Assembly (NCBI RefSeq): GCF_032884065.1
Contig: NC_088873.1
Span: 2,709,463 to 2,773,462 of the forward strand
Direction: 5' to 3'
DNA: 64,000 nucleotides
From: Artemia franciscana
Lineage: Eukaryota; Arthropoda; Branchiopoda; Anostraca; Artemiidae
Shown here: positions 3,240 to 64,000 of the stretch, one piece after another
Layout of the letters: every line of letters begins with the position of its first letter
How positions within the stretch are numbered: position 1 is the first letter of the stretch
Program-made: the position numbers and the translations under genes
The notes under the pieces: model-generated
Databases searched by the model: none
What the model was told of the DNA's origin: nothing
The model's input: only the letters and a program-made list of their open reading frames with translations

Positions 3240-5210
3240 GTTTTGACTGTCTTGGTAAAATTTCAGAATCTGAAGAAGCATGGCAACTATTCAAAAACGG
3301 CGTATTGCTTTAGGCCGAAAGTACTATCGGTCGTCAGAAGCCCAGAAAAAAGTTCTGGATTTCGCAGGAAACTCTAGATGTTATTGAACAGCGTCGCAAA
3401 GCACGCTTAGCGAAGGACGTAGTTACCTTCAGACGTCTAAACGGCGTAAGAAATAAATTCCTCCATGGAGACAGAAAGCTGTTCACCGAGAAAAAGGCCG
3501 CCCATCTCGAGGAGGCTGCCAGAAAGGGTGACACATGCGCTCTATACAAACACCTTCGGGATCTTAAAGATGACCGGGACTGTGTTAGCCAGCCCGACCC
3601 TGCCCTTCTTCAAGTTGCATCTAGCACCCCTGAGGCCCCGTATGAAAGTGTGCAGCACCCTTTCATCTCTACAGAAATCCTGAAATCTTTGAAATGGATG
3701 AAAAACAACCAAGCCCCAGGAGTCTGTGGCATCCCTGCAGACCTGCTGAAATATGATGGGGCAGCGACCCTTCTCTGGCTCCAAGTACTGTTCTCCATAG
3801 TATTTCGTACAGAATGGATTCCAAAAGACTGGCGAGCGGGCATCATTCTGCCTCTCTGGAAACGGAAAGGCAGTCGCAGAATCTGCTCCAACTATCGTGG
3901 CATCACACTCCTCTCTGTGCCCGGGAAGCTCTTCGTTATGACCCTCTTGGACCGCTGTACCACTTTCCTCAGAAGCCAACGAAGAATCCAACAGGCTGGC
4001 TTCATGCCAGAAAGGTATACTGTGGAGCAAGTATTCACAATGCAGCAGCTGATAGAAAAGACTCGAGAGTTTCAACAAAAAGCATATGCTGCCTTTGTGG
4101 ATTTCAAGGCTGCTTTCGATTATGTTGACTGGCAATCACTCTGGCTCATACTGAAAACAACGGGACTACCACCAAAGAAATGCAACCTTTTTGAGCGACT
4201 CCAAGAAGGGACTGAGAGCTGCGTGCAAGTCAATGGCAGACGCAGCCCATCTTTTAAAATTAATACTGGAGTCCGTCAGGGCTGTAATGCTGCTCCAGAG
4301 CCATTTAATTGTGTCATCGACTGCATTACAACTCGGACCATAAACCGCCCCCAGTTTGGGTTGTATTACAGCAATAGAGTACTTTCAGACGCTGACTATG
4401 CTGATGACCTTGTTATCGTCTCTGATGCACAGTCGAAGCTCACAGACGCCCTACAGATCCTTGCTTATGAAGCCTTAAAGATAGGGCTGTCGATTAATTG
4501 GCAGAAGACAAAAGTGATGTTTGTTGAACCCCGTAACTCACCGCGTCCCCCACCAGTCCTAAGGGTCGGTGAAAAAGCAGCTGAGATTGTTGAGGAATTT
4601 ACATACCTTGGCTCTATCCTCTGAAACGACGGGTCAATCCTCAAAGATTTAATGCACCAAATTGCCAAAGCCTCAGCAAAAGTGGGAAGACTAAGTGCCC
4701 TTTGGAGAAAACCTTCTATCAGCCGTAAGACCAAGATGCGCATATACAATGCTTCGGTAAGTTCCGTGCTTCTTTATGGAGCCGAAACCTGGCCAGCCAC
4801 TCAGTCTGTGCTTAGCACCGTAAATATAGCCCAGACAAAACATCTTCGTCGCATTAAAAGACTACACTGGCACGATTTTTTAGCAACGAGAACCTCCTGG
4901 CGTTAACTGCTCAAACGCCCTTCTCAGTCCAACTCGCCCAATGAACACTACGCTGGTATGGATATCTCCTTCGCATTCCCCCCGACACTCCCGCACAACC
5001 GATTTTTGACTTTGATCCTGTGCTGCACGGCGGGCAACGCCCAAGAGGTCGTCCCACAACCAGATGGAAGGACACGACAGGTGCCTTGTTAGCCATGGCA
5101 AATATTCAGGAGGACGTCCACATCCTTGCAAGAGACCAGTCTAAATGGAAGTGCAACGTAGCATCACTCTCCACGCCGGAAGCATTTCAGCAGGAGCAGT
5201 AAGTCAAGTG
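3240..5210 (+). mobile_element. non-LTR retrotransposon (LINE), 5'-truncated
   Basis: Only the reverse-transcriptase half of a LINE is present; ORF1 and the endonuclease are missing, as expected from 5' truncation during target-primed reverse transcription. Base composition is clearly richer in G+C than the flanks. No poly(A) or microsatellite tail is obvious after the last coding part at 5202, and I see no target duplication. Confidence 0.88.
3254..5202 (+). pseudogene. LINE reverse transcriptase (pseudogene)
   Basis: One frame can be followed from about 3254 to 4870. Landmarks: an RT-0 type segment (WISQETLDVIEQRRKARL, 3356-3410), NQAPGVCGIPADLLKY (3707-3754), NYRGITLLSVPGKL, motif A FVDFKAAFDYVDW (4094-4132), motif B GVRQGCNAAPEPFN, and catalytic motif C DADYADDLVIV (4390-4422). 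The thumb and C-terminal part (LLYGAETW near 4770; RGRPTTRWKD near 5047) closes the protein. Lesions: in-frame TAG near 3311, TGA at 4622-4624, a +1 shift in the T-run near 4873-4878, and TGA near 4949. The catalytic YADD itself is intact. The clade is uncertain (RTE-, CR1- and Nimb-like all possible). Confidence 0.9.
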
Positions 5211-6318
5211 TACTGACGAATCGCCATAAAAATTACCCCCTCTCTCCTCAAAAAGAACTAGGGTTACTGTACATCTAAAGAGACAAACAGGACGATTCAT
5301 GTACTTCAGGAATTCTGTTTCATTCTTATGTTCTGAACAGGAGCAGGATTCTAATCCTTTAACTGTTCTGAAATAAGATTAAGATTATAGTATTTTTATT
5401 ATAGCATCTTACAAAGAATTATAATTTATAATAGTCAGATTTCAAGGTCATGTCTGAGTAGGAGTCACCAGGTCTGAGCCCCCTGAAATATTTGTCTAAT
5501 TTGTACAAACGTGACAAAAATGCACATAAACAAATTGTTGGCGCGTTTTTTAAGGTTTTGCCCCCCCCCACAAAAAATATACTGGATACGCCCTTACCAT
5601 TTTTATATTTTATAACATGTTTATAATATAAGACTATGGTTCTATAATATTTGTATTGCAATAATGGCAAGCTACATAATCATGGTTTCTTCATTAATTG
5701 TTGTGTCGAATAGAACTGCAGAAACATATATCCTCAAACCTACACATAACACAACCGTTTGTGACGCACACGCAACAATTCATTGGATACAAGTTGCTGC
5801 CAACAGCAACAAGTTGAAGATGAAAAATAGTCATAAAAAATGAATGAGACACAAAAGCATAGCACTAGTAATAAAAAAGGCATATTATAATAAAAAAATA
5901 TCTATATTTAAAAAAAATGTTGAAAAACTTGATAAGAAGTAAAAAAAAAACATGTCTACAATTTTAAAAGAGCTTATAACTTAAGAAAAAACTTATTTTC
6001 TGATATCTTTCCAATACTTCAAGCTTGTAAGCTACAAAGAGCAGAAGCAATATACAAATTTTCAACAGAATAAAATTAGAAATTTTCAGTCAAATGAAAT
6101 AACCATGTCGTTGCAAAATAGAGAAGAATGTAATAGCTTACTAGTTTAGATCTTTACAGAAAGCCAAAACCCTCAAAAATTATTCCTGAGAAATGTTGAC
6201 AGTATAACTAATCATTACTCAACCGACTAGCTTCTCTTTGATTGACCTAGTCACATGTTCAGTCTTGTAAATCACAAATGGGTTGGTGGTACTGTTTTAG
6301 TACTGTCACTCTCCATAA
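5211..6318. other. intergenic, AT-rich, no gene seen
   Basis: There is a poly-C run with the flanking phrase TGGATACGCCC near 5555-5595, which looks like part of a dispersed repeat, and A-rich low-complexity DNA from 5820 to 6000. No coding potential or structured repeat is visible. Confidence 0.5.
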
Positions 6319-10250: not shown

Positions 10251-10915
10251 TTTTTTTTATAGTGTTTTAGTGTCAATAAATGTTTTTATTTGACAAGTTA
10301 GTTTAAGGTTTTTGTTTGACAGGTTAGTCTACTGCTTTTTTAACACTTTATGTATGTTTGGATTCAAATCCAAAAAATTTTATACATCAATTCTAAGAAG
10401 AATTAAAATCCACTTCTCCTTAGCTACTTTGTTTATGGAGCTACAACTCACTTAGTATTTGGGAAAATCTCTTTAGGTGAAGAAAATGAAACTCATGTAT
10501 ATTCACTTGAAGGACATCTAGATTTAGAAAAAAGTGAACATGTGTGTACTGAAAATATAAATATTTCTTTGTAGAAGCTATTACAATGGTTATTAAATAT
10601 TAAGCTAGCTTTCAAAAGAGAAGGTCAACATTTTTCCCAATAGTTTTCATTTGCCTGCTACAGAAATTTTATTAAATTTTAAAGAATTTTCTCAAAAACA
10701 GTAACACATTACTGCAAATTTCTTTTTTGAAGCTGACATAAAAATGTAAAATATCATTTACTTCTAACATGGGAAAATGATTGTGCACTGCATTTAAACC
10801 TCTGTTTCCCTCCCAAAAATCTTATATAAAAAATTTAGTACATCTTATGGAAAAAATTGAAAAACATCATTATTTCTAAAAATTCCATATTAAGCAGCTT
10901 CAACATAATTTCAAT
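10251..10915. other. AT-rich interval, probably decayed retroelement
   Basis: A short local repetition (TTTTTATTTGACAAGTTAGT then TTTTTGTTTGACAGGTTAGT) lies at 10284-10330. No reliable coding fragment is visible. It may be the missing upstream part of the Penelope-like element that follows, but I could not recognise RT motifs. Confidence 0.35.
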
Positions 10916-10919
10916 GCAT

Positions 10920-11400
10920 ACAAGTATCAATATTTTGGGCCTACAGAAAATAATAGATACATTCACTTCAAGTCTAACCATCCTCCACAGGTTAAAATAG
11001 GTGTGGTAATATCTCTTGTAGATAAAGTGCTTAATATCTGTTCAGAGTCATATGTTCAAATGGAATTAGATTTTGCCATAGGGTTCCCTGTTCTTGCAGT
11101 TCTTTCTATGTTGGAAGAACCAAACAACAACTGGGGAAGGGATTGTTGGAACACAAGTCCTCAATCAACAAAGTCATGGGGCTACATCAAAGGCCTGAGA
11201 CTTTTGATTCTGCCTTGTCAAAACACACCTATGAAACACAAACCATTTCATTTGATAAAATTTCTATTATTGCCCTGTTAAAGGTCTCACGCAAGTTTTC
11301 AGAGAGGCATTGCAGATAAAAAAGCCTATTCACCAAAGAGTAACCCTCAATAGAAATACTGAAGAAACCTGTTTAAGCCCCATTTATACTGAACTCATTA
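10920..11400 (+). mobile_element. Penelope-like element remnant: RT thumb plus GIY-YIG endonuclease
   Basis: Penelope-like elements join a telomerase-related reverse transcriptase to a GIY-YIG endonuclease. From about 10935 the plus strand reads a thumb-like segment (RYIHFKSNHPPQVKIGVV, SLVDKVLNICS). After a frameshift, 11089-11320 reads the endonuclease core CSCSSFYVGRTKQQL, then EHKSSINKV, then SALSKHTYET and a Phe/Lys/Arg-rich end. YVGRTK matches the second half of the GIY-YIG motif, with the conserved Arg. The order RT-thumb then GIY-YIG is diagnostic. The upstream RT palm is not recognisable and stops are present, so this is an inactive 5'-truncated copy. Confidence 0.75.
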
Positions 11401-20015: not shown

Positions 20016-21699
20016 TTACTTGCTTTAGCCTGTATCCAGTTCCTGATTGCCATATAAATTCCATATTCATAGTTAAATAACATAAGCCTTTGTATATAGA
20101 CTATACCTTGTTGCTAATTTTTCTGGGCATAGAATGTTTGATTTGGTAAAGCCCTAGAGAAGGACCTGAAGAGAAAGAAACATAATAAAAAAAAAATTCA
20201 TGCTTCATAATTTTTAGAATAATAGCTGGTAACACATTTTATATTCAACCTTGCTCTACTTTACCCCTCAATCCTCCCAATATAAAAATGTATTGCTGAA
20301 ATTTCCTATTTTCTATTTGTTTTGTCAATCTGTCTCTCTAACTTCATCCCATGTAGCTGTAAATTAAACAAATGTGACAAACAATAAGTAGAAAACAGGT
20401 CACAGGATGTTAAATGCATTGAAAATATGAAATTTGAGCCATATTTCTGCACATTGGGAGGGGGATTCAGATAAAGCATAGCCTAACTTAATGATTTTCT
20501 CTTGCTATGTAGGGTAATTGGAAAGTCACTTGTATATCATGCTGTCCTTTTCAGTTTTAGTTGGATAGAAAAAATCCAAAGAAAGTCCCCTTTGAAAAGA
20601 TAGGAGCCACAAAGTGAGATTGTATTTGTCAAAGCTTGGAGGTTTGTCCCTTCTGTCTGTTTAAACAAAACAGAATCTTAATTGAAGCTTTGTTCATTTC
20701 TATCTTAAGGGTGCAACAATTATGATATAAGGTACTTTTCTTTATTCAATTGTCTTCTTTGTTGTCTAAAAGACTTTTTTTTAATCTAGATGTTTCATAA
20801 ATTGCTCATTTTTACCAGAAGTTCATTTGACCTACTTTGAAATCCCTGGTCTTAAAATTACATTTGACTTTGTTAAAGCTAGGAGACATAGACCTTGTGT
20901 TTGTTTAAAGAAAGTGAATAAACATTAGTAATTTGTATTGCACTAAAGCCCTAGGGCCATCACAATTCCAAACAAAAAAGAAACTTCACTTTAGTATATT
21001 CAATATTGTCTAACATAACAGAAACAAAGAAAAAAAAATTACCAAATTTTACTTCTGCACTCTACTGTCAACATGAGACATTGTCCAAAATTTTAAAATC
21101 TTGCAAAACATTCGTCCCTCATCACATTCACCAGCGATCTCTCATCAAGCTTACACTTCATTTCTCATCTCAATCAATCCTACAAATGCATCAAATAACC
21201 CACTCTCTCATTAGTGCTTCCATAGATATGGTCAAAGTAAGAGCCATCTTGCTTACATTTTATTATATCTAGAGGTTTTCTGTAGCTAAGTCAGTACTTA
21301 AATATTTCATACACCTTTGTAAACAACCTTAAGATGGTAAAATAGGTTGGATTATCCAAATTTTTAGTTGCCACAATATATTTCAATCATTATTGTAATA
21401 TAAAGGGCAGCCAATAGTAAAGGACCTGAATAAATATTTTAAGGTAATTAAAAAGGTTTATTACTCAAAAACTTGATAAAACTAAAAGGGACTTTTTAAT
21501 GATTGATTACTTTAAAATATCTACATTATACACAACAATAAACCTTTGCTATAAAGGGAAAGTCAGTAAGGCCCAAAAACTATTCAATACTAATTGTGGT
21601 TTGAGACAGTTTGCTGAATGTCTAAATGATTTTAGATAGTAATGAAGATAAAATGTGGTCAAACTCAACACCAATATGCAAGTAAGTAAGTATGGCAGC

Positions 21700-21981
21700 A
21701 CTGACACATCAAGGTCTAAACTGGCAGTGCTAATTTCCACTTTGTGACCCTTTGGCCAAGAATTGCAATTAAGGGCTGGGGGCCAGAAATCTTGTGCTTT
21801 TGTACACCCTCCCTGCTTACCTTTTGCATATTTCTCCATTTGCCTATTTAGAGCTGGTTTAGATCTGTCTAACATCACTGGCCCCCATTTAAAACAAATA
21901 AACAGGCAGTACTAGGAATCAAACCTGTACCACATGGACAAAGGATTTCTTACTAAGAGTGCTTTCCACTTAGCCAAGAAC
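21700..21981 (-). mobile_element. tRNA-headed SINE, copy 1
   Basis: On the minus strand 21981-21907 reads like a degenerate tRNA. An A box TGGCTAAGTGGA (plus 21965-21976) and a B box GGTTTGATTCC (plus 21915-21925) are separated by an anticodon-arm-sized spacer, so this would be an internal RNA polymerase III promoter. A non-tRNA body follows to about 21700 and matches the body next to the head at 35043. The head is too degenerate to be a working tRNA. No tail or target duplication was identified. Confidence 0.65.
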
Positions 21982-22189
21982 ATTATTACAACCAGAGTAG
22001 AACAACTATTAAAAAAAAATATTGAAAAAAAACAAGATGGATTTACAGCCATTTTCACTAATTTTCAATACACATTGTATTTTACTTAGACAAGTTATTG
22101 TAAGGCAGGTGTCAACAAAGCTCCAGCAGGGATTGCTTTACTTAAGATGCAAACTAGCATGGTGAATACTTAGCTGGTAAAAACCAAAT

Positions 22190-22275
22190 ACACTAGCAAT
22201 GCCAGGAATTAAACCTGTACCCCTTGGACAAAGGATTCCCAAACCAGAGTGCCAACAACTTAGCAAGGAACACAA
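22190..22275 (-). mobile_element. tRNA-headed SINE, second head (tandem partial)
   Basis: The same tRNA-like head as at 21907-21981: B box GGTTTAATTCC (plus 22205-22215) and a weaker A box TTGCTAAGTTG (plus 22256-22266). It sits about 290 bp from the first head, and the flanking sequence (CAGGTATCAACAAAACTCC versus CAGGTGTCAACAAAGCTCC) is also duplicated. Head plus flank were therefore duplicated in tandem in this copy of the large segment. Confidence 0.6.
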
Positions 22276-22784
22276 ATGTGACCAGAGAACTATTATTTGA
22301 AAAAAGAAATATTGAAAAAAACTCAATTCATGGTTGTTGCTTTTCTCTACTGTCCCATAAACAATATATTTTATTTAGACAAATTAATTTTAAGACAGGT
22401 ATCAACAAAACTCCATCAGGGATTGTATTTACTTAAGATACAACAAGCAATGTGATTGCATAGCTTTGTGATATTCTAGTCTTAAATAATGATAAAAAAG
22501 CAAATTTACATTTGCTATTTCTTTTCCAAACCATTTTAAGCAAAACCATTTGCAACAGCAATATGTCCATGGTTAGATTAGTGTCTATCCAAAATGCTTT
22601 ACAACAGAAGGGACACATTTCTTGCAAAGCAAATACTCAGCTTTAATGCTATTCTGTGTCATCTCTAAAAAATTAAACTGTATCAGGTGTATTTTGATAT
22701 AAGATACTTCTAAGACTTTTAGCAAGGGGGCAGGCATTTCTTCACAATTTATACAATGTGTAAAAGAGCACCAGGGGCCGAGAT

Positions 22785-26184: not shown

Positions 26185-28600
26185 CATTACTACTTAGCTA
26201 CCCCATTTTCTCTATTGTGGGGTATATGTATAAATGAATGTTGGAGTGGAGACAAGTATTATGTTGACTAATAATTTGTAATTTTTTTTATTACATAGAA
26301 ACAGTTTTTTATGACCAAGAAAAAAGGATTCTGATTTTATTTAAAAATACATTATTTTGTTTTGCTACAAAGTCATTTATTGTTTGAACCTGCGATTATG
26401 ATGTTATTTATCATCTTGTATACAAAGATGTCATCTTGTATACAATAATTGTGAGTCTTTATTTTGATGTGCATATTTGAAGAAAAAGTTTACCATATGT
26501 ATAGACCAACTAACCCAATAGGAACATTTTGACTAAATACCTGACAGCCTGTACAACCAACAAGTCTCTTTTTGCTTCCTGGCTTTTGGCTATGGTCTGT
26601 TTTATGCTTTCTATTTAGCTAATTTTGTTTTGCTGGTTAAATAGCAGAAATATTCTTTATTTGACTATGTTTTTGAGTTTAGGCTATTTTATGGTTTTCA
26701 TTTAGTTATTTTCTTTTTTTCCCAAGAAAGAATGTTGGTTAAATAGCAGAAATAATCATATAGGCTACATCACCTATCACTGTCTTTGTACAATAAACTT
26801 CTAATTTCTTGGAATTAATTTTTTCAGGTTTGGCATTAATAAATTTACTCATAGATAACATTGGCCTCCAAAATTACAGTTTTGAAAATTTCGTAAAGTA
26901 TTTTGCCAAATTCCATGCTATTTGATATGTTAATTCCGAAAATGGTTCCCATCATTCCCATAATGTCAGGATTTTCTTGAAAGATACATATTATTTTAAA
27001 CAAAACCCAATTTGGAAAAGAATGATGTTGCCCAATTTCTTGTGTACTATCTGGTAACATTAGTTTCACCCAAAGCCAATAATTTGTTATTTCTTTATAT
27101 TACATAGAAACAGTTTTTTAGGACTTAAAAGTTTCTGATTTTATTTAAATGGCCCTTGTGTTTCAAGAGTTAAAGAATTAAAACAAAAGGTCAAACTGTA
27201 GCATAAAGAGCAGAGTATTGTGGAGGGGAAATCAAATCACATAACTTTTCCTAGCTAGAATTTCCTCTTTGTGGAGAATTTTTCCTGCAGAAAATTCCCC
27301 CATCAAATATTTTTTTTTTCCTCAGAAATGCATTGATAAGCATCTTATCACTTTGGTTATGGATGACGTTGTTGGCTTGTTGCAAAATTACAAATTTCTG
27401 ATGGGATGTAAACATTAACTTGCTTTTCTGAATTTACAACAAATTAGTGCAAACATAAATGCTTAGTTTGGTGGTGTCCATTGTAATTCTGAGTAACTTG
27501 CAATGTCAAGGATAATAACATCTTTGTTTTATTATACTTGACATCTAAAGTTTGTGTTTCCAAGATTTGTCAGGGGCTAGTAGCTACAGTAAATTCTTAA
27601 ATGATTCATAAATGAGGGTAGCTTCCCCCTCCTTAATAACTCATTTTTCACCCTGAAGTTTTTAATATCTTGTTAAAGTTTCTTAGGGGCCATTTTCACA
27701 AGGATTCAAGTTCAACTAAAATCCTTGTGAAACCAACAAAAGATGGATAAAATTCATCTTTTGTTCAACTTAGAGATGGGCTTCATAATCCAGTTAAAAA
27801 TGCGGCAAAAAACATAATCCATCTCAGTGATACCTTAACTCATATAGCAAATTTCAAGCAGAACTAGCTTAGCCTACTAGCAGTTGTCTTTCATTTTTGA
27901 AAAGGCCAGGCCACCCAAGCAAAGGGTGTATTGTCATTACAAATGATTTTGCTGAAATGAGCTGGTGGAAAACTATTAGGAAATGTAAGGAATCTAGTTT
28001 ACTGTTTAGAGATTAGGATATCACAAAATTAAGCATTCAATATGCTTGTTTGTAAATCTTAAGTAAATACAAACCCTGTTGGAATTTTGTTGATATCCAT
28101 CTCACAAGTAGTGTGTCTAAAGAAAGTTTCCAAAGAGCATTCAGTTTTCAGCATGCATTTTATCTTTATTGATGGTTAAAGAAAGCAATAGATATACCTG
28201 CTGTAGTTGATTAGTAATAAATAACTTGCTGCCTTTCTGCATAAAAATGTGCATTTTTATGTATAATGTATAGCTTTTAAAGTCATTAATTCCTGAGAAG
28301 CCCCTTCTCCAGTTATGCCAGCTTTATGGGTAGTAAAGCCTTTTTAAAATAATCTGAAATAATTCTTTGGGGGTCCTTACTAGTGACTTTCCTTTCTACT
28401 GCAATTAGCAATGGTTGAAATATATTGTAGTCACTAAAAATTTACAATCTTACCTATTTTACCACTATTAAGTTGCAAAAAGGGTGAACTAAATATTTAC
28501 CATTGAATTTGCCACAAAAGAAATTTCTAGCTTCAAGAAATTCAATCATGCCTTTAGAACAAGGGATCCTAAGTTAGGTCAAAGTCTTGAAAATGTGCTT
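26185..28600. other. intergenic or intronic; small hairpins near 27.7 kb
   Basis: No supported exon. 27690-27830 holds three consecutive small inverted repeats: TTTCACAAGGAT/ATCCTTGTGAAA, CAAAAGATG/CATCTTTTG and GAGATGG/CCATCTC. The rest is AT-rich. TTATTACATAGAAACAGTTTTTTA occurs near 26290 and again, slightly changed, near 27100, suggesting an old duplication. Confidence 0.4.
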
Positions 28601-28606
28601 CTAGTA

Positions 28607-28739
28607 TAAGTAATTTGTAGATTAGCTGATGATGAACACTGTATATGTGTTCGAAATATCCAGTTAAATAATTTTATATTTCACTGTCAATAAAAACGTA
28701 TCATCCCTGTTTTGAACTGCTTTACTTAAGTAATTTGTA
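28607..28739 (+). mobile_element. 107-bp retroposed insert with 13-bp target duplication and hammerhead-like core
   Basis: The insert 28620-28726 is flanked by perfect 13-bp repeats TAAGTAATTTGTA (28607-28619 and 28727-28739), the size expected for target-primed retrotransposition. At its 5' end is CTGATGA (28626-28632), a perfect 6-bp stem GAACAC/GTGTTC (28634-28639, 28647-28652) with a 7-nt loop, and GAAA (28653-28656). These are the conserved core boxes and stem II of a hammerhead ribozyme. An AATAAAA signal lies at 28689. I could not find stems I and III. It is best read as the 5'-truncated 3' end of a retroelement, possibly Penelope-like. Confidence 0.7.
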
Positions 28740-29315
28740 AATAAAAATTTGTGTCTTACTAAAAATGAGACAAAAAAATCCTGCAGAAAAGAAACAAGAC
28801 AGATTAATAAAGGAAGAAATACCATGGATGCCCATGAAATGTAAGATAGAAATGAACAAAACTTCAATTATGCATCTGTTTTCTTTAAACAGACAGGAGG
28901 AATAAACCTCCAAGCTTTGACAAATTCAATCTCACTTTTGGAACCAGGTATAAGACTAATTTCCAGGGAATGAAAACAGTAAATCCCTGGCTTTTCTATT
29001 GACACAGGCAGTGAAGGGAATAAAAACACATTTATTGTTCTGCCTATTTGTTCAACTTCTCTGTCTGTTCTACACATTCTGTATTATATTTATTTGATAA
29101 AAAAAAGGCAAAATGTCATAGATAAGATTTATTTGCAAAAAAGCCTGCAGGCCATAGCAAACACATGCAACTTTATACAAGCACCTAATTCCAAACAACT
29201 TAAACAAGCAAACAAACTTTCAAACACTTTATAAATTCAGAAACACCCATGAATAAACTCTTACCAAGCTAACTCCTCAAACATGATTCCCTATGCTTAG
29301 TCCCTAAACAAAGAT
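28740..29315. other. intergenic, nothing recognised
   Basis: Overlapping minus-strand open frames (28664-29077) are low-complexity or hydrophobic and lack support. AT-rich DNA. Confidence 0.4.
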
Positions 29316-33096: not shown

Positions 33097-33530
33097 TTGT
33101 TTCTTGTTAATATTACTAAGGAGTCATAGTTAAGCACTAGAGAAGTCATTGTTAAATAACATGTGCTTATGTATATATAGCTTTTTGCTACTTATTCTTC
33201 TTTGGTTATATAATGCTTGATGTGGTATAAGCCAAGAGAAGGACCTGTAGACCTATAGAAGAAAACCTGTTAAAAAAGATGTTTCTTTGTAATTTACATA
33301 ATAATTATAGCTTTCTACATGCAGCCCTGCTCTACTTTAGCCCCAACCCTCCTAATATGGAAATCTATAGCTGAAATTACATATTTTCTATTGATTCTGC
33401 CAATCTATCCCTCAACCCTAGTACCTGTTAATTGAGGCAACTGTGGCAAAACAAAAACTGGAAAAACAAGTAAAAGGTGGCAGAAAACATTGGGAATATA
33501 TAATTTGGGCTATATGTTTGCAAATTAGGC

Positions 33531-34030
33531 ATGTTGTTCATATTTTGATTTACAAATAAAGTGAATATACCACTTGATGCCTTTTTGTATGTTCTTTACA
33601 AATATTATAATTGCTTATTTTGCTAGTTCAAGTTTAAGCACTTTTTGACCTTACTTAACCTAACAAATTTTGGCAGTGAAAAACATACATTATTTTGTCA
33701 AAACTGACCAAAAACACGTACCTTAATTGAAAATTTGGCATCAAAGAAGAAGAAATACAGCATAATATTGTAAAATTTATTAATCCAACTTCATTGTGGA
33801 AAATCAGTGCTCATAGATTATACAACATGTAAAAAATGGATTAATAATGAAACAGTAAGTTTGAGACCAATGTTTTAAGCTTTCTTATACCCAAAAACTA
33901 TTTGAGTATACTTTGGTCATTTTCAAGAGCTCAAAAACTTGTACTTGAAGCACTTATTATGTTTGTAAAAAATAAAAAAGGGCATCAAGGAGTATGTTCA
34001 CTTTATTTGTAAATCAAACATATGAACAAC
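33531..34030. mobile_element. foldback element inserted in paralogous segment 2
   Basis: Ends are TGTTGTTCATATTTTGATTTAC on the left and the complement of TGTTGTTCATATGTTTGATTTAC on the right. Arms of about 110 bp include CACTTGATGCCTTTTT and AAGCACTTTTTGACC, shared with the 629-bp palindrome. The element is absent at the equivalent place in segment 1 (about 20480), which gives an empty site. The central 260 bp is unrelated to the other copy and non-coding. Confidence 0.75.
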
Positions 34031-34839
34031 AAAAAATTTACCAATTATTAGTATAGCTGCACAACTTTCCCCTGGGTATGTAGGCTTAGTGGAAGGTCAC
34101 TTATACCTGATCATGTCCCTACTGTTTTTAATTGGTTGAAAAAAATCCAAAGAAAGTTCCTATTGAAAAGGAAAGAGATCAAAAGTGAGATTGAATTTGT
34201 CATAGCTTGGAGGTTTGTCCCTTCAGTCTGTTTAAAGAAAACAGATTCATAATTGAAGCTTTGTTCATTTCAATCTTAGGGATAATCTACATTTGTTACA
34301 CTTAATTAAATGGTTGTAAAGGGATACTTTTATTTATTTGTCTTGTTTGTTTTCTACATAATTTTTTAATCTTTAAATTGATATACATTTCTTACAAATT
34401 AATTAGTCATATCATAGTTCCACTTGCAAGTTTTGACCTACTTTGTAACCCTGGTCTCAAAATTGCATATAAATTTATTGAAGCTAGGAAACATAGAACT
34501 CATCTCTGTTTAAAAGAAAATGGATGGACATAGGTAGGTTTTAATACACTAAAGTCCTAGGGCCATGGAAATTTAAAAAAAAACAATGAAGATTAACTTT
34601 AAAATTCTGGAAATGACATAAATATAACATTCACAAAGAAAAACCATTCACAAAATTTTACTTTTGTGCTCAGTTGCCAACCTGAGCAATTGCCCTAAAT
34701 TTTTAAACCTTGCAAAACATTCACCAGCCAATTCTTATGACCTACACTGTTGTCTGTACATCAAAAATTCATTGAAAAGGAAGGACCACCTTACTGGCAT
34801 TTCTTCTTTTGTACTTATATTTAATGGGTTTAAAAGAAA

Positions 34840-35130
34840 GCTCCTATGGCTAAGTCAGAAGCCTAGTAAAGGACCAGGTAATCCTTTAGACAGGAAGTGC
34901 AATAGGAAGCTAGGGGCCGTTCATCCTATGCTTTTGCATGTCCTTCCTGCTTACTGACCCCAGATTTCTCTAGGTAACCTGTTAAGTTTGGGCCAATTCT
35001 GGCTGAACTTACAGAGTTACATCACTGACCTTTGTCCCAAGCCAAATAAACTGCTAATGCCAGAAATTAAACCTGTGCCCTTTGGATAAAGGATTCTCAA
35101 CCTAGAGTGCCAGCCACTTAGGAAGGAACA
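34840..35130 (-). mobile_element. tRNA-headed SINE, copy in paralogous segment 2
   Basis: The B-box-like GGTTTAATTTC (plus 35062-35072) and A-box-like TCCTAAGTGGCT (plus 35112-35123) lie in the same arrangement as copy 1. The body down to about 34840 shares AGTAAGCAGGAAGGACATGC, then AAAAGCATAGGAT, with the 21.8-kb copy. It is collinear with segment 1, so it predates the duplication. Confidence 0.6.
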
Positions 35131-35770
35131 CAAATGTCACCAGAGAACAAAAATTATTTGGAAAAAAGAAAATATTGAAAAAAAAAAAAAATAAATAACT
35201 CAAGTCATAGTTGCTCATTGCTGTCCCACAAACAATATGTATTTCATTAAGACAAATAAATTTTTAAACAGGTATCAACAAAACTCCATCAGGGATTGTA
35301 TTTACTTAAGGTACAATCAGCAATATTAATGCTTAGTTTTGTGATATTCTGGTTTTGAAATAATAAAAAAAGAGAAATTATATGTTCTACTTGTTTTCCA
35401 CAAGCCCATTTGAGAAAAATCATTTGTGACAACAATATACCCATGGTTGGCTCAGAATCTCTCTAAAATTCTTTAAACAGAAGGAATTTAAAAAAAAAAT
35501 TATACTCATCAGCAAGAAAAATATTAACATAACTCTCTAAACTTGGCACTTTTTAAGACAATTTTTAGCAAAGCAAATGCAAAACTTTAATGGTGTCCTA
35601 TGTCATCTAATAAAAAACCCCATTAAAATGTGTCAAATGAATTTTGATGTAAGATGCCTCAAATACTTTCAGTTGAATCTGTGAAATGAAGGGCTAGGTA
35701 TTCCTTTACATTTTATACAATATATAAAAAGAAAAACAGTTCAAATTTTTTCACAAAAGAAGAAGCTTGA

Positions 35771-35866
35771 TGTAGTATTTTTATATTATGTTGTATGGAA
35801 GTTTCATGTTATGTTTTTTTTGTAGGTAGCCTGGGTCAATAAACCTATTCAATAGACAACATTACA
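35771..35866 (+). repeat. 5' LTR (96 bp)
   Basis: Begins TGTAGTATTTTTATATT and ends CAACATTACA, giving the canonical TG...CA. Contains AATAAA (35837 region) within GGGTCAATAAACC as a likely polyadenylation signal. It is identical to the 3' LTR except for the second base. Confidence 0.95.
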
Positions 35867-35884
35867 TGGTGTCAGAAGTGGGAT
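35867..35884 (+). promoter_or_regulatory. primer-binding site, tRNA-Leu type
   Basis: TGGTGTCAGAAGTGGGAT directly follows the LTR. Its complement ends ...CACTTCTGACACCA, which from memory matches the 3' end (with CCA) of animal tRNA-Leu. It would prime minus-strand DNA synthesis. Confidence 0.8.
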
Positions 35885-35894
35885 CAAAATAACA

Positions 35895-36638
35895 ATGGAC
35901 GTCCTTCAGCCATCAATAAACTGGGAGGTCAACTCCCTTTCAGAAGAATGGGACCGCTTTGAAGAACACGCTAAGCTGATGTTTGCAGGGCCACTTTCAG
36001 GCAAAACAGAAAAAGTACAGTGTGCCTACCTACTCATCTGGGCTGGAGCAAAAGGTCGGGAAATATTCAACACCTTCAGCATCGCGCCTGAAGAGCTGCA
36101 CAAAATTGAACCTTACCTCGCTAAATTCAAAGCATATGCTTCACCTCAGAAGAACACAGTTCTTGCACGATACCTGTTCCAGAAGCGAGACCAAAACGAC
36201 ACAGAGACTGTGGAAAAATACATCACAGATCTAAAGACATTAGTGAAACCATGCTCCTACTACGACCCAGATGAAATGGTTTGGGACCGAATTGTATGTG
36301 GAACCCAAAACCAAAACGTGCGTGAAAAGCTCTTGGCCGAAGGTGATGAACTCACACTGGATAAAGCAACCTTTATGTGCAGAAGCCACGAAGCGACCCA
36401 GGCTCAACTCAAGACATTCAACGGAACGAGACCAGCCCCCATCAAACAAGAGATCGACGCTATATTCCGCTACCAAAACCGGAACAGTGGTAGAAACAAA
36501 CAAACAGAAGCAAGCGGCTCCAAGAGTAAAGCATGCTACTTCTGTGGCGGAACATACTCCCCCTCACACATCTGTCCTGCAAAGGGGAAAACCTGCTCCA
36601 TATGCAAAAAGACCAACCATTTTGCCAGGGTCTGTTGA
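35895..36638 (+). CDS. gag: Gag polyprotein of Mag-like element
   Basis: A 247-aa open frame starting 28 nt after the LTR. It begins MDVLQPSINWE, has a capsid-like helical region (SPQKNTVLARYLFQKRDQ, about residues 83-100), and ends with two Cys-His motifs: CYFCGGTYSPSHIC, near residues 211-224, and a true CCHC knuckle CSICKKTNHFARVC. It would package element RNA. This is the only intact ORF in the element. It ends at a TGA (36636-36638) in the same frame as the downstream protease, so the stop either separates Gag from Pol by readthrough or, more likely given the other lesions, is a mutation in a Gag-Pol fusion. Confidence 0.85.
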   Translation: MDVLQPSINWEVNSLSEEWDRFEEHAKLMFAGPLSGKTEKVQCAYLLIWAGAKGREIFNTFSIAPEELHKIEPYLAKFKAYASPQKNTVLARYLFQKRDQNDTETVEKYITDLKTLVKPCSYYDPDEMVWDRIVCGTQNQNVREKLLAEGDELTLDKATFMCRSHEATQAQLKTFNGTRPAPIKQEIDAIFRYQNRNSGRNKQTEASGSKSKACYFCGGTYSPSHICPAKGKTCSICKKTNHFARVC

Positions 36639-39600
36639 AGTAAGACAGTCAGTGCAGTTGATGAAGACGCTGCAGATACAAACCCCAGCGACGAAACTGT
36701 TTTCCTTTACTCCATCAAGCAAAGTAAGAACAAAGACGAAGCAGTTATTCCACTGACTATCAACAACCAGTTCCCTGTACAATTTAAGATCAACACAGGA
36801 GCCCAGGTGAATATCATCCCAAAGAAGTATTTTGACCTCATCACGCCAAAGCCCACCATGAAACCCACCAATAAGCACCTCACAAGCTATTGTGGAGCAC
36901 GGATCCCAGTAACAGGAGTCTGTGAACTATCCTGTAGGTACAAAGACAACGTGAGCAGCACGCAGCAGTTCTATGTAGTCGAGACCTCATCCTCCCCAAT
37001 CATTGGCTACCGTTCTAGCCTCAACCTGGACCTGATCAAGCTAGTCCTAAACATAGACATAGCAACGTCCCAAGTACCGCACCTGAAGGAAAAGTACAAA
37101 GAAGTATTCAGAGGAATTGGGAAGCTGGACGGAGAATGCAACATACACCTAAAGGATAACGCTACGCCAACCGTCTACCCAGCCCGACGAGTCCCGCCGC
37201 TATGCAGGATAAGCTCAAGACAGAGGTCAGTCGCCTAGAAAGCCTAGGTATCATAGAAAAAGTAGTGACCCCGACCGAATGGGTTAACTCAATGGTAATG
37301 GTAGAAAAGAAGGACGGCTCCATAAGACTGTGCATAGATCCAGTTGATCTAAATAAGTCCATCAAGCGACCGCACTACCTGATTCCCACTCTGGACGATG
37401 TCACCTCGAAGCTACACGGAGCCAAAGTATTCACCAAACTTGATGCCCGATCCGGTTACTGGTCCATTCTGCTGTCTGACGACTCTTCTTATCTCATGAC
37501 ATTCAGCACGATCTATGGGAGATACCGTTTCAAGCGAATGCCCTTTGGAATCATCTCAGCCCAAGATGAATTTCAGCAGCAAATGGAAGACGCTTTCGAA
37601 GGCCTAGAAGGATTCGAAATCATCATTGACAACATGATCGTGCATGGCAACACCCAAGAAGAACACAACGAACGTCTAGCAGCAATATTGGAACGCACCC
37701 TTGTCAAGGGCATCCGATTCAACGAAGAGAAGTGCGAGTTCTCAGTATCCAGAGTAAAGTACTTCGGACACGTCATAAGCTCCGAAGGAATGCAGCCAGA
37801 CCCCGATAAGATCCGTGCCATAAACAACATGCCAAGCCCATCATGCTGAGAAGAACTCCAAACACTTCTTGGGATGATCAATTACTTAGCCAAGTACATT
37901 CCAAGTCTCTCAACAAAGAACAAAAAACTCTGTGACCTGACTAAAGCAGACCCGTTCATCTGGGAAGAGGAACACACGCAGATCCTAGAAGACTTGAAGA
38001 GCTCCATAGTATCCAACACCCCGTTCTTCAACCACAAGAGTAACAACATGGAACTCATAGTTGACGCCTCTAGCCACGGACTTGGTGCACACCTGGTCTC
38101 GGAGGGGAAAGTCACAGCTTATGCATCAAGATCGCTCAGCAAAACAGAGCAGAAATATTCCCAGCTAGAAAAAGAGCTGTACGCCATCGTATTTGGCTGC
38201 AAACATTTCCACCATTATCTCTATGGCCGGCATGTTGAAATTACTACTGACCACCACTACTGACTATCCACAAGGCCCCACCCCGAGTACAGAGATTAAT
38301 GCTCCAGCTCCAGCCTTATGACCTTAGCCTGAAGTTCCGACCAGGCTCAGAAATTCCTGTAGCCGATGCTCTATCCCACCTACACCTGGGCGATGCAGAT
38401 CCAACACTGGAAGAAAGTCTAGATGTCTACGTACACCAAGTTGTACAAAACCTACCTGCCAGTGACCAGAAGCTCGAAGAGATCCGGGTGGAAACAACAA
38501 AGGATTCAGAACTGAGTACCCTGATCAAAACAGTCCAAGCGGGGTGGCCGAGTGCAAGAAAAGACTGCCCAACCAACATCCTAGCATACTGGAACTTGCA
38601 GCATGAACTCTCCTTTGAAAAAGGCATCCTACTCAAAGGAGAAAGGCTGATCATCCCCAAGAATATGCAGGCAGCTACACGCAGCCCATCTCGGAATCGA
38701 GAAAACAAAACAACGAGCCAGAATGTTGGTATATTGGCCAGGACTCAATGCAGACGTCGAGCAGTACATAACGAAGTGCCAAACATGCGCCAACAACATG
38801 CCAAGCAATTCAAAGGAACCGATGATAAACCACAACATCAAGACGATCTCATCCAGTGCAGTCATCACGAAACTCAAGGCCCATTTCGCCCGACACGGCA
38901 TACCGTCTCAGCTAATGTCAGACGATGGACCTCAGTTCACATCAAGAGAATTCACCGATTTTGCCAAGACGTGGGGAATCTCACTAACCATGTCCAGCCC
39001 AGGATACCCAAAATCCAACGGACTGATCGAGAAGGCGGTACAAATCTCAAAAAACATCATGATGAAAGCGACAGAAAACAGAGAAGACCCCTTCCTGGGT
39101 ATACTAGAGTATAGGAATACACCAGTCGACGGGTTTGCGTCCCCAGCCCAGCTCCTAATGTCGCGTCAGCTAAGATCCATCCTGCCGTGCACTGCACAAC
39201 ACCTCAAGAAGAAAGTCATTCCGACCACACAGTTTACCCGACAAAGAACTGAAATGCAGAAACGCCAAAAGCTGTATCATGACAAATCAGCTAGATCACT
39301 GAAACAACTCACCCCTGGAGACGCAGTTTACGTACAGAAGACACCCGACAGACCATGGAGTCAGGCTGTTGTGCTATCCCATGCAGGACAGCCATGATCC
39401 TACCGGGTGTGTACCAACGAAGGTTCCATGCTAAGGAGAAACTGTAAACATCTCACAGCCTGTCCACATCAAAGCCAGCAAGGTTTGAGCCATGTCAGTG
39501 AGACAAGCAATGAAGCAGCACCACCAACAACAGAAACAGCTATTGAGTCACCACCCTCAGCTTCACAGCCAGACCTGTTCATGTCCCCATTGCCACTGCA

Positions 39601-39736
39601 GGACAGTCAGCAGGCCAGCCCAAGCCCCAACAAGACGGCCACCGTATCTCAGCCCCAGGGTACCAGCAAAACACCATTGCAGCTATGCACGCATTATGGT
39701 CGAATAGTAGGAGGACCCCTGAAGCTAAACCTGTAA
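36639..39736 (+). pseudogene. pol: Pol polyprotein (protease, RT, RNase H, integrase), inactivated
   Basis: Protease: FKINTGAQVNIIP (about 36786-36824), where the catalytic Asp of DTG is Asn (AAC at 36792-36794). A 1-base frameshift near 37197. RT: LDARSGYW (about 37440) and IIIDNMIV, with the second catalytic Asp changed to Asn (AAC at 37631-37633). TGA at 37847-37849. RNase H: ELIVDASSHGLGAHLVSEG and SQLEKELYAIVFG. A frameshift near 38253. A small deletion/frameshift near 38675. Integrase: zinc-binding region ending KCQTC, then an apparent in-frame deletion near 38834-38848 that removes the first catalytic Asp; SDDGPQF and NGLIEKAV keep the other two positions. TGA at 39395-39397, where CGA is likely ancestral. 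The C-terminus ends RIVGGPLKLNL. Confidence 0.92.
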
Positions 39737-62350: not shown

Positions 62351-64000
62351 AAAGCAAATACTCAGATCTAGAATGCGAATATTTAGGCGTTGACTGTTAA
62401 ATTCTCACATCGCCTTTTATGTTTAACTACAACAGAGGAGCGTTGAATTCAATCAAGTACAGATCAGATTGCGAATATGGAATAGCAAATACTCAGATGT
62501 AGAATGCGAATATTTAGGCGTTGACTGTTAAATTCTCATTTCAGTCAATGTGTGAATAATCGCCTTTTATGTTTGAATTACAACAGAGGAGCATTGAATT
62601 CAATCAAGTACAGATCAGATTGCGAATATGGAATAGCAAATACTCAGATGTAGAATGCGAATATTTAGGCGTTGACTGTTAAATTCTCATTTCAGTCAAT
62701 GTGTGAACAATCGCCTTTTATGTTTGAATTACAACAGAGGAGCATTGAATTCAATCAAGTACAGATCAGATTGCGAATATGGAATAGCAAATACTCAGAT
62801 GTAGAATGCGAATATTTAGGCGTTGACTGTTAGGTTCTCATTTCAGTCAATGTGTGAATAATCGCCTTTTATGTTTGAATTACAACAGAGGAGCATTAAA
62901 TTCAATCAAGTACAGATCAGATTGCCAATATGGAATAGCAAATACTCAGATGTAGAATGCGAATATTTAGGCGTTGACTGTTAAATTCTAATTCAGTCAA
63001 TGTGTGAATAATCGCCTTTTATGTTTGAATTTCAACAGAGGAGCATTGAATACAATCAAGTACAGATCAGATTGCGAATATGGAATAGCAAATACTCAGA
63101 TGTAGAATGTGAATATTTAGGCGTTGACTGTTAGATTCTCATTTCAGTCAATGTGTGAATAATCGCCTTTTATGTTTGAATTACAACAGAGGAGCATTGA
63201 ATTCAATCAAGTACAGATCAGATTGCGAATATGGAAAAGCAAATACTCAGATGTAGAATGCGAATATTTGGGCGTTGACTGTTAAATTCTCACATCGCCT
63301 TTTATGTTTGAATTACAACAGAGGAGCATTGAATTCAATCAAGTACAGATCAGATTGCGAAAATACTCAGATGTAGAATGCGAATATTTAGGCGTTGACT
63401 GTTAAATTCTCACATCGCCTTTTATGTTTAATTACAACAGAGGAGCATTGAATTCAATCAAGTACAGATCAGATTGCGAATATGGAATAGCAAATACTCA
63501 GATGTAGAATGCGAATATTTAAGCGTTGAATGTTAAATTCTCACATCGCCTTTTATGTTTGAATTACAACAGAGGAGCATTGAATTCAATCAAGTACAGA
63601 TCAGATTGCGAAAATACTCAGATGTAGAATGCGAATATTTAGGCGTTGACTGTTAAATTCTCACATCGCCTTTTATGTTTAATTACAACAGAGGAGCATT
63701 GAATTCAATCAAGTACAGATCAGATTGCGAATATGGAATAGCAAATACTCATTTGTAGAATGCGAATATTTAGGCGTTAACTGTTAAATTCTCACATCGC
63801 CTTTTATGTTTAATTACAACAGAGGAGCATTGAATTCAATCAAGTACAGATCAGATTGCGAATATGGAAAGACAAATACTCAGATGTAGAATGCGAATAT
63901 TTAGGCGTTGACTGTTAAATTCTCATTTCAGTCAATGTGTGAATAATCGCCTTTTATGTTTGAATTACAACAGACGAGTATTGAATTCAATCAAATACAA
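62351..64000 (+). repeat. satellite array, 151/131/120-bp units, runs off window
   Basis: The anchor ATACTCA recurs at 62359, 62489, 62640, 62791, 62942, 63092, 63243, 63363, 63494, 63614, 63745 and 63876, giving spacings 130, 151, 151, 151, 150, 151, 120, 131, 120, 131 and 131. Full units contain GTAGAATGCGAATATTTAGG, TTTCAGTCAATGTGTGAATA, CGCCTTTTATGTTTGAATTA and GAGCATTGAATTCAATCAAG. The 131-bp form lacks the 20-bp TCAGTCAATGTGTG block, and the 120-bp form also lacks the 11-bp TATGGAATAGC block. Units are mostly over 95% alike by eye, and most carry an EcoRI site (GAATTC). Confidence 0.96.

Follow-up and report, generated by a model that had tools for sequence, protein, structure and literature searches.

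Penelope-like elements (PLEs) encode a reverse transcriptase (RT) followed by a GIY-YIG endonuclease, and carry pLTRs. According to the available portion of PMC11167929, the protein of an Anolis PLE initiates cDNA synthesis internally, at two sites close to where the coding region begins, and extends both target strands. The Anolis pLTR hammerhead cuts only when the protein is present and is dispensable for insertion in vitro (same portion of PMC11167929). Penelope inserts of the rotifer Adineta vaga follow the same plan, and one of the inverted pLTRs may have a tail; self-priming on an antisense template was the mechanism preferred by the authors (PMC3846280, available portion). Hammerheads of available PLEs are minimal and lack helix III, as stated in the part of a review at hand (PMC6155905).

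The window, a stretch of 64,000 nucleotides of Artemia franciscana, contains a 107-bp insert between perfect 13-bp repeats TAAGTAATTTGTA (table). Its description as a retroposed insert with a perfect 13-bp target duplication, given in the sequence-only reading, stands: the repeats are exact, and a nearly empty site is present in a paralog. The insert lies in copy B of an older repeated block, whose three copies in the window are diverged (about 70–92% identity in pieces). At the corresponding place between conserved blocks, copy C reads TACAAATTAATTA, a nearly empty site with 12 of the 13 letters of the duplicated target, the reverse complement of which is TACAAATTACTTA. The alignment score against copy C is 49 with insert and both repeats, and 75 when the insert and one repeat are deleted. 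Against copy A it is 49 with or without the insert, and copy A is uninformative. Given the nearly empty site and the rise in score, the insert is a real insertion with target duplication. A locus on another contig (L002, contig C4) is 99.6% identical to the window locus (L001, contig C11) over all 3143 nt, insert included; the window copy therefore is within a larger recent segmental duplication, or is an assembly duplicate.

Table. Features of the window, with positions counted from its first letter.
Feature	Position	Strand	Basis
Helitron_like_N domain, tandem charged repeat preceding	882–2369	−	
Reverse-transcriptase element, RVT_1	3314–4624	+	
Second PLE, diverged and broken: RT end and GIY-YIG region	10754–11324		40–60% identical in pieces
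Stem II remnant of the second PLE's own hammerhead, about 300 nt further on	11626–11654		
Copies of the same repeated block elsewhere in the window	about 20067–22765 and 33146–35729	+	window self-comparison, alignments
Older repeated block holding the insert (copy B)	27924–28940	−	window self-comparison and alignments
Target-site duplication, left copy	28607–28619	+	perfect repeat; 12/13 letters at nearly empty site of copy C
Insert, 107 bp	28620–28726		between the perfect repeats
GATTA, five letters separating target repeat from pLTR module	28620–28624	+	outside the module common to most copies
pLTR module of PLE (very probable), 102 bp, 5′-truncated, tailless 3′ end	28625–28726	+	3/102 differences from majority of 53 copies
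Hammerhead core CUGAUGA	28626–28632	+	pattern scan; covariance model
One additional T	28633		
Hammerhead stem II, GAACAC/GUGUUC, perfect 6 bp, 7-nt loop TGTATAT	28634–28652	+	6/7 pairs changed on both sides in relatives
GAAA	28653–28656		
GAAAUAUC: GAA core, minimal stem III AUAU, cleavage triplet AUC (putative)	28653–28660	+	form common to family and relatives
Stem I 3′ strand CAGUUAAAU, orphaned	28661–28669	+	ACUG/CAGU pairing in family copies; covariation in relatives
Target-site duplication, right copy	28727–28739	+	perfect repeat
RVT_1 element within a run of frames resembling an LTR retrotransposon	35856–39736	+	
Tandem array, unit about 131–151 bp, reaching the window end	62409–63999		

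The insert is very probably a 5′-truncated, tailless, solo pLTR of a young, abundant, endonuclease-bearing PLE, and the reading of inverted pairs and mechanism given below proceeds from that identity. The genome searched comprises 1.27 Gb in 6468 contigs. At least 64 matches to the insert, the window itself counted, are 93–100% identical (40 of 889 first-look candidates scored). Family loci were taken as the best matches to the window copy, and short 5′-truncated fragments are thus under-represented among them. In most other copies 102 of the 107 bp align, beginning at the G before CTGATGA; the family sequence upstream of this point is ..AGTTTTACT. The five letters GATTA of the window copy may be filler or divergent upstream sequence; the middle pLTR of locus L036 has GAATA in this place.

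Longer copies extend into coding sequence. L036 has tandem units and, at 4541–5800, a single frame of 420 aa with RVT_1 (33.6 bits, Pfam cut-off 29.6) and, after it, GIY-YIG (21.5 bits, just under the Pfam cut-off of 22.6). The GIY-YIG domain was seen in three frames, at E 1.7e-4 to 3e-4 and 21.5–22.3 bits against the cut-off of 22.6, which counts against the preferred identity. Also counted against it is a preceding frame of 450 aa without meaningful Pfam match; by its PLE motifs this frame is taken to be the RT fingers. A frameshift lies between the two frames. The best match to a solved structure is weak (reverse transcriptase 8ub7, E 0.0003). Features found in the family are RT, GIY-YIG after RT, tandem and inverted pLTRs, a short target duplication and a tail on one end. 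Because longer copies have RT and then GIY-YIG, with pLTRs, the shared 102-bp module is assigned as the pLTR of a PLE, and PLEs, one of the possible homes named from the window letters, become the probable one. At least 153 genome matches were obtained with the endonuclease region of the second PLE of the window (150 of 8905 candidates scored).

The motif of the insert is, to judge from its letters and those of its relatives, a hammerhead of the minimal type I form, most of which is kept in the window copy. By itself the pattern CTGATGA-N5..35-GAAA is not rare, the window having 4 matches (shuffle mean 1.70) and 9 of 100 shuffles having 4 or more. What places the motif above chance is the nearly empty site in the paralog, the relatives in the genome, and the covariation of both stems. 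In family copies reaching further 5′, stem I is formed by ACUG, which directly precedes CUGAUGA, and CAGU, which directly follows GAAAUAUC; a mismatch and more pairs come next. The cleavage triplet of the family is AUC; stem III is the self-complementary AUAU only, with no countable helix. Stems I and III could not be paired in the sequence-only reading; stem I was found in the longer copies, and stem III was reduced to this minimal AUAU. The commonest form of the hammerhead occurs in 51 of 72 family matches of a regular-expression scan (redundant loci included), and the intact 43-nt core occurs letter for letter 1724 times in the genome and 0 times in a backward control. The cut is expected after position 28660. 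Of the 5′ strand of stem I, the window copy retains only the last base (28625), preceded by GATTA. The ribozyme of the window copy is therefore predicted to be broken and should not self-cleave, in keeping with the earlier suggestion of a truncated ribozyme: the copy ends just short of the strand that its longer relatives have.

Rfam models did not recover the motif, which is counted against the hammerhead reading. The whole window gave no hammerhead at gathering score, and neither the 361 nt surrounding the insert nor seven relatives gave one even at E ≤ 10; the check proposed from the letters was thus negative at the locus and in these relatives. Below gathering score, snoRNA, miRNA and other families were matched; some of these matches look strong on account of long inverted repeats in L003 and L006. 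On the evidence of the window and the seven relatives scanned, Rfam hammerhead models can miss PLE hammerheads.

In diverged PLE loci, a regular-expression scan gave hammerheads in just 3, and a stricter form in 2, vs 0.04 per shuffle of these loci. A covariance model was built from 4 sequences, 3 of them from diverged PLE loci, and searched against 31 of the 32 loci L050–L081 (L052, overlapping L050, left out) and 4 family loci. At E ≤ 0.001 it matched in 24 of the 31 diverged loci, including the 3 used to build it; the 7 of 31 without match at this threshold are counted against the hammerhead reading. In L055 and L061 the match is on the strand opposite the endonuclease, as expected for an inverted pLTR. 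The covariation alignment comprises all 37 model matches, weak ones included, in 32 distinct rows; it was fitted to the structure, which favours the structure and is likewise counted against. Over the distinct rows, cells are paired in 91.3% (76.3% in shuffles, 0 of 500 reaching the observed value), the covariation score is 0.386 (0.168 shuffled, 0 of 500), pairs with both sides changed number 11 (7.9 in shuffles, 22 of 500) and further pair types 27 (21.7, 9 of 500). In slid controls the paired share does not exceed 44.3%, nor the covariation score 0.080. Changes on both sides occur in 4/4 pairs of inner stem I, 1/3 of outer stem I and 6/7 of stem II. Across relatives the stem letters change wholesale and the core letters are constant. 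Between CUGANGA and stem II there is one nucleotide beyond the textbook core, also counted against. Relatives usually have C at this position and occasionally T or A; in some families, pairing of this base with the G of GAAA could lengthen stem II.

The equation of CTGATGA, hairpin and GAAA with a hammerhead core, proposed in the sequence-only reading, is thus borne out by the covariation of both stems across diverged PLEs. Stem I pairing is present, and the changes in inner stem I and stem II follow a hammerhead pattern. That the motif is a conserved hairpin of a LINE 3′ UTR, hammerhead-like by chance, has next to no probability: the tail-like 3′ end, the 5′ truncation and the target repeats would suit a LINE, and against it stand the two covarying stems with their constant core letters, a coding frame that combines RT with GIY-YIG, and inverted pairs with 3′ ends outward. 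This alternative, raised with the original description of the locus, is contradicted by the stem covariation and the coding copies, and was dropped.

For the analysis of ends, 9 loci contained in longer ones and three near-identical duplicates (L016, L024, L049) were left out; L002 was also left out of the counts of 5′ extents, flank letters and arm variants. In the 37 loci kept, 28 pairs of copies are inverted, with their 3′ ends outermost; a further 13 copies are not part of such pairs. In 26 of the 28 pairs one end is tailless (1–5 nt past TTTTACT) and one is tailed (35–43 nt past). The exceptions are L010, in which a deletion in the tail stops the match, and L015, which is nested. Direct repeats of at least 10 bp flank 24 of the 28 pairs, an AT repeat in one case; among shuffled flank pairs, 3% have repeats of 8 bp or more. 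A second set comes from the first 100 exact 3′-end sites of contig C1; exactly one exact tail is present in 14 of its 17 pairs, none in 2 and both in 1. The genome has 3333 exact 3′ ends, of which 1355 are tailed, and about 48% one-tailed pairs are expected. At tailless ends the flanks resemble the next letters of the element, TTCGTC (119 of 204 letters vs 55 by shuffling); as templated and target letters are mixed there, the resemblance is not taken as a sign of homologous priming. A strict one-tail rule was not found in titles and abstracts of the open-licence literature searched; literature beyond these may hold one. The window locus itself is ordinary, and PLE pairs with a one-sided tail are already in print.

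The 5′ extents are bimodal: of 57 copies, 37 retain no more than 15 nt of the family sequence upstream, and 20 retain at least 30 nt. Exactly 9 nt upstream of GCTGATGA is the end of 19 of the 57 copies. This boundary is the outer end of stem I and lies 33 nt below TATAAAT. Of 61 copies (redundant loci included), 33 have this motif no more than 45 nt away, 30 of them at 33 nt. The position of the boundary suggests a transcription start.

The abundance of short copies bears on a further alternative, that of a small non-autonomous family of the retrozyme type, short self-cleaving retroposons spreading as RNA circles. It is very improbable. The type I hammerhead, the low GC and a target repeat of more than 4 bp agree with animal retrozymes as characterised in the available part of PMC7229834, and the 37 short copies would agree as well; RT and GIY-YIG in the longer copies, the lack of head-to-tail arrays of the short unit in the loci fetched, and a family stem III that is minimal and not canonical speak against it. 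For the family this reading was dropped on account of the coding copies. Of the earlier proposal of a small self-cleaving retroposon family, the many small copies with the motif remain, many of them pLTR-only; their independence does not, the longer copies being coding PLEs.

As read from the copies in the genome, priming from both cut strands, each copying a separate RNA, accounts for the data better than self-priming does. In self-priming, inverted pairs of the same element would arise from one arm copied off the other and not from two target strands. Palindromic snippets are found at inverted junctions, and self-priming on an antisense template has the precedent of rotifer Penelope (PMC3846280, available portion). 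It is unlikely here, as in 26 of 28 pairs the two ends begin at template sites that are not the same. Arm sequences disagree in 20 of the 29 pairs compared, and 4 of the 29 do so at a variant present in another locus too, with small numbers and later mutation possible; one non-majority variant common to both arms occurs in 0 of 29 pairs, likewise a small number.

Returning to priming from both strands, PLE insertion may be an ordered two-RNA reaction, in which the tail site is used by one cut strand and the tailless site by the other, both copying short RNAs of their own that start with stem I, before the two cDNAs are united head to head; this ordered reaction is offered tentatively, at somewhat less than even chance. 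In the preferred reading of the family, transcription would start near AGTTTTACTG, 33 nt below TATAAAT, and the RNA would therefore begin with stem I. Cut target DNA would prime RT, which would start inside the 5′ part of the RNA at one of two sites some 35–40 nt apart and run to the 5′ end of the RNA. Transcripts of one unit would give pLTR-only cDNAs, and longer cDNAs would come from read-through of tandem units. As a rule both strands of the target would serve as primers, one giving a tailed and one a tailless cDNA, and the cDNAs would be linked head to head. For the window copy only one side, the tailless one, would have been made, its cDNA having ended a short way inside stem I. Counted against this reading are two in vitro results for the Anolis PLE: its enzyme showed no strand difference in start site, and insertion did not require cleavage (PMC11167929, available portion).

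If the two-RNA reaction is correct, every single-unit transcript would open with the hammerhead at its very 5′ end, and the hammerhead would be a removable 5′ leader or a mark of where cDNA synthesis ends. If the promoter reading is correct, RNA 5′ ends are predicted at AGUUUUACUG; if the RNA is cleaved in vivo, at CAGUUAAA; and if cleaved RNA serves as template, an excess of copies should start at the cut site, CAGTTAAA.. The near-strict one-tail rule, the unlike arm variants and the sharp 5′ boundary at stem I give concrete predictions for a poorly known insertion mechanism. Within a single genome, 1724 identical hammerhead cores and 3333 exact 3′ ends make the family an extensive natural archive of PLE insertion.

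The following comparison applies to the available portions of the papers cited. Poseidon of Anolis (PAc, PMC11167929) and Penelope of Adineta vaga (PMC3846280) likewise have RT and GIY-YIG, tandem and inverted pLTRs, short target duplications, a tail of 30–40 nt on one end, and AT-rich targets. PAc likewise has a pLTR hammerhead with stems I and II. Unlike both, the Artemia family has a nearly strict one-tail rule and a high copy number. A short frame that opens with its hammerhead ATG ends after 11 codons; in PAc, stem II is where the reading frame begins. Shared with the minimal PLE hammerheads (PMC6155905) are the type I layout, the nearly absent stem III and the location in the pLTR; the Artemia family may differ in the extra nucleotide between CUGANGA and stem II. 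Animal retrozymes (PMC7229834) are similar in the type I hammerhead, low GC and target duplications of more than 4 bp. They are non-coding tandem units with canonical hammerheads, whereas the Artemia family is a coding PLE with the minimal form.
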